Positions 8,682 to 43,638 of a DNA stretch of 43,792 bases are shown here, in pieces (the first letter of the stretch is position 1; every line of letters starts with the position of its first letter). The stretch comes from Spirochaetota bacterium (GTDB taxonomy: Bacteria; Spirochaetota; Spirochaetia; Treponematales; Rectinemataceae), in contig JAJUIB010000021.1 of NCBI GenBank assembly GCA_029265615.1, positions 1 to 43,792 on the forward strand. Reading direction: 5' to 3'. Both the position numbers and the translations under genes were made by a program. The notes under the pieces were generated by a model. The model was not told the DNA's origin, did no database searches, and saw nothing but the letters and a program-made list of their open reading frames with translations.

Positions 8682-8717
8682 GAAAAAGTAGCCGCGAAGG
8701 GGGGTTTGCGGCGATGA
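8679..8717 (+). CDS. Leaderless 12-codon leader ORF overlapping the first cyclase gene
   Basis: This frame encodes MEKVAAKGGLRR. Its ATG is six bases after the -10 hexamer TAGTAT, and its TGA (8715-8717) overlaps the next ATG (8714) as ATGA. The body contains AAGGGGGG at about 8697-8704, which could act as an internal Shine-Dalgarno for re-initiation at 8714. It repeats the design seen at 8020-8070 only 650 bases earlier. Function as a coupling leader is inferred. Confidence 0.5.
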   Translation: MEKVAAKGGLRR

Positions 8718-9637
8718 AAGTCAAACCTCCCCTCGCCCTTGCGGCGAAAAAATGCCTCCATGAGTCGCTTGCACCCGAGATGCTCGCGCGAATCGCCAAA
8801 GAGGTCATGCCCGGCTATGATCTTTCAGGACGGGCAGGGTTTCCCCAGACGATTCCGGTACCGAGCCAGATTATGATCTCCCACTTCATCGACGACGTGA
8901 TCGGAGCAGAGCGCTTCCTCCTCCTCGTTGAACGCCTCGTGCGGCTTGACCGGGAGGGCTTCATGGGGCGCGCCTACCGCATTCCTGGCCTCAGTGAGCT
9001 TTTCAAAGGGATTCTCGCGGAGGGCTACCTCTGGGATGAAGAGACACAGCTCTTCATGGAAGACCCGCGGAGCCACCGCCGCCCCGACTGGGGCCGCCTC
9101 ACGGAAGGCGAAGAGCATCGATTTTCGCTCCTCCGTATGGACATTGTGAAAAACTCCGAGCTGGTCCGCGCACATGGCGAATCGCGCGCACGTGCAGCCT
9201 TTGAGGACCTCAGGGTCATCTTTGCCCGGGCGGTGGAAAGCCGCTCCGGCAGAATTTGGCGCTGGGACGGTGACGGCGCACTCGCCGCCTTCCTTTTCGG
9301 CCATTCCACGACAAGCGCCGTGCTCGCTGGCATTGCGACACTCAACGAACTCTTTCTCTACGATCGCTTCCACAATGCGCTCGGCGAGCCGCTCAAAACC
9401 CGCATCGCTGCGCACACCGGGCCGCTCCGCTACAGCACGGCGGTCGCGGAAATGCTCAAGCAGGAAACGACTCAGGAGGTCATAGAAGCCGAAAGCCGCT
9501 GGACGCCACCGGGGGCGCTATCCATTTCGCCCGCGGTTGCACCGACCCTCGACAAAGTAATTTTCGATCGCTTCCATCCTTCGGGGGAGCCCGGATCGCG
9601 GCTTCTCATCTACGAGATCAAGGTGGCCGGAGTATGA
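8714..9637 (+). CDS. Class III nucleotidyl cyclase-like protein, metal-binding partner
   Basis: The C-terminal part (about residues 135-290) follows the class III adenylate/guanylate cyclase pattern: FSLLRMDIVKNSELV supplies the first metal-binding Asp, GRIWRWDGDGALAAF the second, and KTRIAAHTG matches the following strand. Where catalytic members have V-N-x-A-x-R, this protein reads V-I-E-A-E-S, so the transition-state Asn and Arg are missing. The N-terminal ~130 residues are not recognised. The gene overlaps the next by ATGA (9634-9637), and the next protein has the opposite set of residues. I therefore infer one half of a heterodimeric cyclase making cAMP or cGMP, but a non-catalytic sensor is possible. 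A cyclic-nucleotide-binding protein lies at the other end of the window. Confidence 0.65.
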   Translation: MKVKPPLALAAKKCLHESLAPEMLARIAKEVMPGYDLSGRAGFPQTIPVPSQIMISHFIDDVIGAERFLLLVERLVRLDREGFMGRAYRIPGLSELFKGILAEGYLWDEETQLFMEDPRSHRRPDWGRLTEGEEHRFSLLRMDIVKNSELVRAHGESRARAAFEDLRVIFARAVESRSGRIWRWDGDGALAAFLFGHSTTSAVLAGIATLNELFLYDRFHNALGEPLKTRIAAHTGPLRYSTAVAEMLKQETTQEVIEAESRWTPPGALSISPAVAPTLDKVIFDRFHPSGEPGSRLLIYEIKVAGV

Positions 9638-10590
9638 AGCTCATCCTCTACGCCCACGATCCGGCCGATCGACGCCTTCACAGCCTTTTTGGCAAGCTTC
9701 AGGGCCACGACGTCGAGATTCTTCCCTTCTCCGCGTTTGGACGTAGTTACAAAAAGAAGGCGCAAGGCGCCTTTGTATACCTTGAGGCCGTGGCCGAGGA
9801 TGCGAAGCGGGTGGCGGAACTCGGCGCAAAACTCGGCGAAATGCCCGGAGCCGCATGGGGCGTCATTGACCGCACAGGCGTAATCGACGACCCTTCGGGC
9901 CTTTTTTTCGCGGGGGCAAGCGACTATATAGGGCCCGCCCTCGCCAAAGTCGGCCTTTCGGTGCCACGGCTCAAGGCCGCGCTCGCCTTCGCACGACTCG
10001 ATGAGAGCGCAACCTGCGGAGGAGCGCTTCCCTTCAAAGGCTGGTCAGCCTTAACCGAGGGCGAACTCGTCGATGTGCACTTTTGCTACGCGGCGATCGG
10101 CGCACAACGCGAACTTCTTGAAAGCATTGGCGACAAGCGCCTCTATAAACTTTGCGAGGAATTTTCAAGCTTCCTCGAGCGATGGGCCGCCGAATGTGGC
10201 GGCATCGTGTGGATTCGGGAGCCGGCCGGCACCCTCGTTCTCTTCCCACCCACCGATGTGGGCATGAACCCGATTCTCGCCGCCTGGCGCCTCATCCTTG
10301 ACCGCATTCTTGTCGGCTACGAGATATTTCACCTTGACACGCCGCTCACCTTTCGCTTCGCCTTCCACGCGGGACGTACCCCCTGGCGACGCTCGGGAGC
10401 GACGGGGACGGTGGTGTCGGAGGATGTCAACTTCGTCTTCCACCTGGGGCACAAGGCGGCCGCCGATGGCGCTGTCACCGTCTCGGAGACCGCTCTCTCC
10501 TCGATTCCCGCACCACTTTGCGACCTTTTTCTCAAAGCAGGCGATTACGAGGGTCACAGCCTTATGGCATCGCGACACTTCAAGGAGTAG
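9634..10590 (+). CDS. Degenerate class III cyclase-like protein, asparagine-bearing partner
   Basis: Residues from about 150 align by eye with a class III cyclase domain. The first metal position is VHFCYAAIG (Asp replaced by Tyr) and the second is WIREPAGTLVLF (Asp replaced by Ala). Further on, EDVNFVFHLGHKAAADGAVTVSE keeps the V-N of the transition-state Asn, the L, and the V-S-E at the end of the motif; the Arg position is His. The N-terminal ~130 residues have alternating hydrophobic strands and could be a receiver-like regulatory domain. It is translated directly after the preceding cyclase-like gene through an ATGA overlap. Alone it should be inactive; I infer it completes the neighbouring protein's active site. 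Confidence 0.6.
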   Translation: MKLILYAHDPADRRLHSLFGKLQGHDVEILPFSAFGRSYKKKAQGAFVYLEAVAEDAKRVAELGAKLGEMPGAAWGVIDRTGVIDDPSGLFFAGASDYIGPALAKVGLSVPRLKAALAFARLDESATCGGALPFKGWSALTEGELVDVHFCYAAIGAQRELLESIGDKRLYKLCEEFSSFLERWAAECGGIVWIREPAGTLVLFPPTDVGMNPILAAWRLILDRILVGYEIFHLDTPLTFRFAFHAGRTPWRRSGATGTVVSEDVNFVFHLGHKAAADGAVTVSETALSSIPAPLCDLFLKAGDYEGHSLMASRHFKE

Positions 10591-43121: not shown

Positions 43122-43638
43122 GCAGAAAGGCGGAAAGCTTTTCAAACTCCTCCTGCGTGATCACCGATTCGCGCTCGCAGGCGAGCTCGCGGCTCGTGGC
43201 GCCAAGACGCTTAAGCAGACTGTAGATGACAAAGGTGAAAATACGAAGTCCCGCCTTGGGGTTTGCGTCGCAGAATCTGAACAGCTTGTCCCGAGGCACG
43301 GCGGCGACGACGCAGGTACCCCGAGCGACCGCACTCGCGGTTCGAGGCAGATCCATGAAAATAGCGGCCTCGCCCAGGACATCTCCTTCCTGAATCGAGC
43401 TCACGACGACCTCGCCGCCCTCTCTACCCCGGACAAGGATGTCGACTCGCCCCTCCACAAGGAGGTGCAAGTCGGTGCCAACCGAATCCTGCTCGACAAG
43501 GTGTTCGCCATTCTCATACTCGCGAAATTCACAGATAGCGGAAAAACGACGCAAATCGCGCGGCGTAAGCCGCTTGAGAATAAGGCTCCGTGCGAGCTCG
43601 GCGGTGTAGCGGTCGCGGGGTATGGAGATGGGGCGCAC
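43087..43638 (-). CDS. Cyclic nucleotide-binding domain protein
   Basis: This is a small cytoplasmic protein dominated by one cNMP-binding (CAP-like) domain: RRFSAICEFREYENGEHLVEQDSVGTDLHLLVEGRVDILV, then VVSSIQEGDVLGEAAIFMDLPRTASAVARGTCVVAAVPRDKLFRFC. The phosphate-binding cassette usually reads G-E-x-A-L/I-x-x-x-x-R-T/S-A; here G-E-A-A-I-F-M-D-L-P-R-T-A keeps the Glu, Arg and Thr. No helix-turn-helix follows. The last ~50 residues are helical and rich in charge. AAGGAG at plus-strand 43645-43650 supports GTG 43638 (183 residues) over the ORF from 43725. It could sense the product of the cyclase-like pair, an inference from the window only. Confidence 0.82.
   Translation of the reverse strand: MRPISIPRDRYTAELARSLILKRLTPRDLRRFSAICEFREYENGEHLVEQDSVGTDLHLLVEGRVDILVRGREGGEVVVSSIQEGDVLGEAAIFMDLPRTASAVARGTCVVAAVPRDKLFRFCDANPKAGLRIFTFVIYSLLKRLGATSRELACERESVITQEEFEKLSAFLPKSLDEMLGRG

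Follow-up and report, generated by a model that had tools for sequence, protein, structure and literature searches.

A predicted obligate heterodimeric class III cyclase encoded by an overlapping gene pair in Spirochaetota

Class III cyclases work as dimers whose catalytic sites lie at the interface, with the metal-binding Asp residues donated by one chain and the Asn/Arg pair by the other, as in tmAC and sGC. Heterodimeric members of this class have been described from eukaryotes, namely sGC alpha/beta, the C1/C2 pair of mammalian tmAC and the chytrid rhodopsin-cyclase/NeoR, and for the fungal cyclases an obligate heterodimer has been reported (PMC3591389, PMC9552081, PMC8815786). The structures of the Pycsar cyclase PycC are symmetric homodimers with two sites that work together with an effector protein, and their base specificity does not depend on the classical purine pair but on other residues (PMC11224242). 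In the literature that we searched, animals and fungi are the only sources of heterodimeric class III cyclases and bacteria yield none, which is weak evidence of novelty given the poor coverage of subscription journals.

Here we describe two genes, A and B, in a window of 43,792 nucleotides (the whole stretch of DNA that was analysed) carried by a spirochaete genome of 2.7 Mb. Gene A (positions 8714-9637, forward strand) encodes 307 amino acids that comprise a helical N-terminal domain, CARD-like as modelled, and a class III cyclase-like domain, and gene B (9634-10590, forward strand) encodes 318 amino acids in which what reads as a degenerate receiver (REC-like) domain precedes a second class III cyclase-like domain. 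The two frames share an ATGA stop/start overlap (9634-9637, forward strand), just as a preliminary description of this DNA had noted. The cyclase-like domain of A retains the metal-binding half of a class III site (D143, S148 and G186-D187-G188), whereas its Asn/Arg half is gone and Q254 and E258 stand there instead; in that of B it is the transition-state half that remains (G258, S262, N266 and H270), while Ala (A154 and A198) stands in the place of each metal Asp. On the forward strand the two metal Asp of A are encoded by GAC codons at 9140-9142 (D143) and 9272-9274 (D187), N266 of B by AAC at 10429-10431, and H270, which occupies the Arg position of the V-N-x-A-x-R motif, by CAC at 10441-10443. 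We infer from sequence both a complex and its catalysis, and consider it probable that A and B work only as a heterodimer, a nucleotidyl cyclase of class III type in which one catalytic site is built from both chains.

Neither protein has a match in Pfam or NCBIfam, and it is by profile comparison that the C-terminal halves of both A and B are recognised as remote class III cyclase domains. Against the eight canonical class III domains that this genome encodes, profile-profile comparison gave 97.0% for A, 96.7% for B, and 98.7% (E 1.8e-16) for a group of 27 single-gene homologues that carry A's N-terminal domain (hereafter solos, e.g. L107, L105 and L117). Cyclases in the PDB are matched by the profiles of A and B, that of A finding class III cyclases, and when a solo is aligned with 3mr7, a cyclase structure (4e-7), Asn falls on Asn, His on Arg and both Asp on Asp. 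The PF00211 cut-off is passed by solos L107 and L105 and by the A2 protein of L129, which belongs to a second, divergent set of pairs (A2/B2), while the best PADLOC match of L107 is PycC (2.4e-11), as it is more weakly for A (1.4e-4). AlphaFold models built from two-row alignments give the cyclase halves of A and B a pLDDT of <50, and Foldseek with such a model of A returned nothing significant. The genome encodes 14 cNMP-binding domains in addition to its eight canonical class III cyclases, and cyclic nucleotide signalling is therefore probably operating in this cell. A cNMP-binding domain (PF00027) also lies in the window itself, at 43261-43524 on the reverse strand, inside an open frame of 225 amino acids.

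The catalytic columns were read from an alignment of 73 A, 73 B, 27 solos, 19 A2, 19 B2 and the eight canonical domains, the last of which serve to check the columns: Arg stands in 8/8 of them at the place of B His270 and Asn in 6/8 at that of B Asn266. Among A proteins the first metal Asp is present in 72/72 (one further row is incomplete there) and the second in 73/73, in the motifs M-D-I-V-K-N-S (D143) and W-D-G-D-G (D187) that the preliminary description had rightly named as holding both. Asn is lost in 72/73, the single Asn-bearing A having Glu for His, and three A proteins have regained His or Arg but lack Asn. The earlier reading of V256-I-E-A-E-S261 as A's counterpart of V-N-x-A-x-R was right about the loss of both residues and out of register by three to four positions: compared with the 27 solos, the canonical cyclases and B, it is Q254 that falls on the Asn column and E258 on the Arg/His column, and the invariant E260 of A lines up with the Glu in R-L-E / H-L-E. 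In B the Asn is present in 73/73 and the His in 71/73, the two exceptions having Asn in its stead, and both Asp are never present together. The B motif of the window reads V-N266-F-V-F-H270, bearing out the proposal that V-N is retained with His for Arg; both Asp are indeed missing, although the first replacement, given before as Tyr, aligns as the Ala listed above.

The exact A pattern (Asp, Asp, no Asn, no His/Arg) is found in 68/73 A proteins and the exact converse in 68/73 B proteins, and the 19 A2/B2 pairs show nearly the same split, somewhat less strictly, in that B2 has always lost the first Asp and often retains the second (14/19). Weighted conservation tells the same story, as the solo-conserved positions G127, D143, S148, W184, G186 and D187 score 0.80-1.00 in A and no more than 0.45 in B, and G258, S262, N266, H270 and L271 score 0.88-1.00 in B and no more than 0.21 in A. 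No pair protein holds all four residues (0/184 over A, B, A2 and B2). Recovery of the missing residues by either partner, which would speak against a shared site, is thus not seen, and all four occur together only in separate solos, 26/27 of which are complete (the remaining one has Lys for His), as would be expected of an ancestral homodimer. Taken together, the residues of A and B make up a complete site that neither chain has alone, which agrees with the earlier proposal that the pair is complementary and could make one working site.

The A2/B2 pairs are found at loci L122-L134, L163 and L166-L169, and one genome (G236, L132) has two of them about 6 kb apart. Among the solos, L117 (L117:2983-3924) carries Arg (N-Y-A-S-R-L-E) at the position that His occupies in nearly all others, which by sequence would be either a natural reversal or the ancestral state.

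The positions that A has lost are themselves biased in composition. Within residues 254-258 (window 9473-9487), K or R occupies the Asn column in 57/73 A proteins and E or D the Arg/His column in 49/73, perhaps because these residues form a salt bridge or belong to a second, regulatory site. The same bias would suit a catalytically active A homodimer whose chemistry had changed, Lys/Arg serving at the old Asn site and Glu/Asp at the old Arg site, with B as an inactive regulatory pseudo-cyclase. However, the Asn and His of B are as strictly conserved as the Asp of A, and a pure regulator would have no need of them, and we judge this arrangement highly improbable.

At the column that specifies the purine, by Lys in adenylate and by Glu in guanylate cyclases, 70/73 B proteins have Met or Ile, A and the solos have Ser, Asn or other residues, and 6/8 canonical domains have Lys; the purine-specifying Lys is thus absent from A, B and the solos, and we therefore claim neither adenylate nor guanylate cyclase identity. 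The His of B appears, from the alignment, to be homologous to the transition-state Arg in position and changed in kind, and to our knowledge His in place of this Arg has not been described as a catalytic solution. Given the missing purine Lys and the change of Arg to His, the term "nucleotidyl cyclase" is applied to A and B in a putative sense. These two changes, together with N-terminal domains of signalling type, could also be read as those of a heterodimer without catalysis, a nucleotide or metal sensor through which the CARD-like domain and the receiver communicate. Yet the Asp of A and the Asn of B are invariant and each set occurs once per pair, and the solos retain all four residues, as is usual where a catalytic site is in use; we consider a purely sensory role improbable, while giving it somewhat more weight than an A homodimer.

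A composite site accounts better for these observations: only A:B gives the full residue set, and gives it only once, hence a single predicted site shared by the two chains. The split is, on the alignment, well beyond chance, being repeated in 73 A and 73 B and in 19 divergent pairs, and the phylum-wide mutual retention of what the partner has lost constitutes strong sequence evidence for one shared site.

A search for the same gene pair in related genomes, as the preliminary description had proposed, found A in 32/99 relatives and B, queried separately, likewise in 32/99, with adjoining coordinates; the closest relative with a name is the Spirochaetes MAG JAKLFE010000003.1 (65% identity for A). 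A wider search of 393 Spirochaetota genomes found the pair to be widespread in the phylum, and in a phylum-wide sample the order is A then B on the same strand in 40/40 pair loci. B starts between -8 and +3 from the A stop in 37/40 of these wider loci, and at exactly -4 in 25/28 near relatives. Complementary retention in 73 A/73 B and 19 A2/19 B2, together with this conserved order and tight coupling, argues for joint selection of the two genes. It could be objected that the pairs may share one duplication, so that the 73 and 19 cases are not independent events, and that A and B act separately, their complementarity being an accident of descent in one lineage. Against this, both halves have stayed invariant after long divergence, with order and coupling conserved across the phylum, and we give the accidental reading hardly any credence.

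In one genome (G101) a full-length A has no B match beside it, and the B gene lies 65 kb from that A, preceded only by a C-terminal A fragment; the separated loci (L156, L157) possibly represent a rearrangement.

A survey of the neighbourhood of 44 pair loci found no third conserved gene, every protein family other than A and B occurring in at most 7/44 (two larger clusters are reverse-strand open frames overlying A and B themselves). The pair is thus a self-contained two-gene unit. A defence island or effector partner was rejected for the same absence of a conserved third gene in the 44 loci. A mobile origin was likewise rejected, relatives of A being absent from the viral contigs and plasmids searched; a solo query in the mobile-element searches matched remote Ruegeria cyclases only.

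The N-terminal domains had been called unrecognised, a statement that no longer holds for either protein. That of A (about residues 1-119; 8714-9070, forward strand) is common to A, A2 and the solos (99% by profile) and is the only well-predicted part of the AlphaFold model (pLDDT about 70-83). With this model, made from a two-row alignment, ranks 1-9 in VIA-align are all death-fold structures, the top match being the bacterial CARD 9cs8, for which Z of 7.1 (<8) and rmsd of 3.6 over 85 residues have to be read as those of a helical bundle in a two-row model; the next unrelated structure has Z 2.8. We regard this as suggestive of a CARD-like fold. The same type of domain is also found ahead of a C-terminal GHKL-like ATPase region in other spirochaete proteins of ~356-378 amino acids (L135-L141, e.g. 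L135:3029-4096), a reading based on a motif resembling EGAGLG and on a very weak HATPase match in Pfam, and these proteins apparently form a GHKL-type ATPase family of their own.

The N-terminal domain of B matches 20 receivers of the same genome at 95.4% (E 1.8e-8) in profile-profile comparison, the control against the N-terminal domain of A giving 0.3%, and the B2 of L129 passes the Pfam receiver cut-off (PF00072, 38.5 bits). In the B of the window the place of the phospho-Asp is taken by Glu51, most relatives having Asp, and the receiver Lys-Pro reads Gly-Pro, the conserved Lys being absent. On these sequence features the domain is best described as a degenerate receiver, or pseudo-receiver.

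In the all-column tree, with canonical cyclases as outgroup, the solos are basal, the A-type clade has support of 98/96, and A-type and B-type sequences join at 82/91. In the tree without the catalytic columns the deep order is unsettled, A and A2 still group at 90/78, and the best tree does not unite the pair genes, although their union in a single clade is not rejected (p-AU 0.37). The receiver common to B and B2 favours one origin of the pairs. The simplest, if unproven, account is duplication of a solo, presumed to be the homodimeric ancestral type, followed by complementary loss and by N-domain exchange in B.

The mechanism that we propose for the A/B heterodimer would run as follows. The two Asp that bind metal and the Ser of the phosphate loop would come from A, the Asn and the His that replaces the transition-state Arg from B. 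The mirror-image site, in which Q254 and E258 of A face the lost Asp of B, would be dead or regulatory, by analogy with tmAC and sGC. Such a pair could have arisen from a homodimeric solo with all four residues that was duplicated and underwent complementary loss, the N-terminal domain of B being swapped for a receiver. The CARD-like domain of A and the degenerate receiver of B might control the activity of the pair, and certain cNMP-binding proteins of the cell could sense its product. Any assignment of that product would be tentative, given that the purine Lys is missing, that His stands for Arg and that the best PADLOC match is to pyrimidine cyclases. More tentative, and rather doubtful, is an extension in which this bacterial pair, as an obligate heterodimer, makes a product other than cAMP/cGMP (e.g. 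a cyclic pyrimidine), uses His as its transition-state residue, is switched through the CARD-like (death-fold) domain of A and the pseudo-receiver of B, and has arrived separately from eukaryotes at the tmAC/sGC solution, with a live and a regulatory site.

These genes probably point to an uncharacterised nucleotide signal in spirochaetes. No natural bacterial series from homodimer to heterodimer was found in the literature searched. Here the intact solo occurs alongside both of the divergent split pairs within one phylum, and sometimes within one genome, which opens to direct testing how the complementary losses took place, how a domain was exchanged and what became of the second site.

Compared with known systems, the A/B pair resembles sGC, tmAC and NeoR in its predicted arrangement, one composite site with metal Asp and transition-state residues from different partners and a second site that is non-catalytic. 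It differs from them in being bacterial, in its overlapping genes, in having His for Arg and no purine Lys, and in its CARD-like and receiver N-terminal domains. With the bacterial homodimeric class III cyclases (such as Ma1120, 3mr7 and the eight of the same genome) it shares the catalytic domain by profile, the Asp motifs and the Asn-x3-Arg position, whereas those enzymes have all residues in one chain and usually the purine Lys and Arg. The likeness to Pycsar PycC is that of the PADLOC matches given above for a solo and for A; in contrast to that system, A and B would form a heterodimer, and a cyclic-pyrimidine effector neighbour was not found in the 44 pair loci. The solos join A's N-terminal domain and cyclase domain to B's Asn/His, and differ from the pair in that a single gene carries all four residues.
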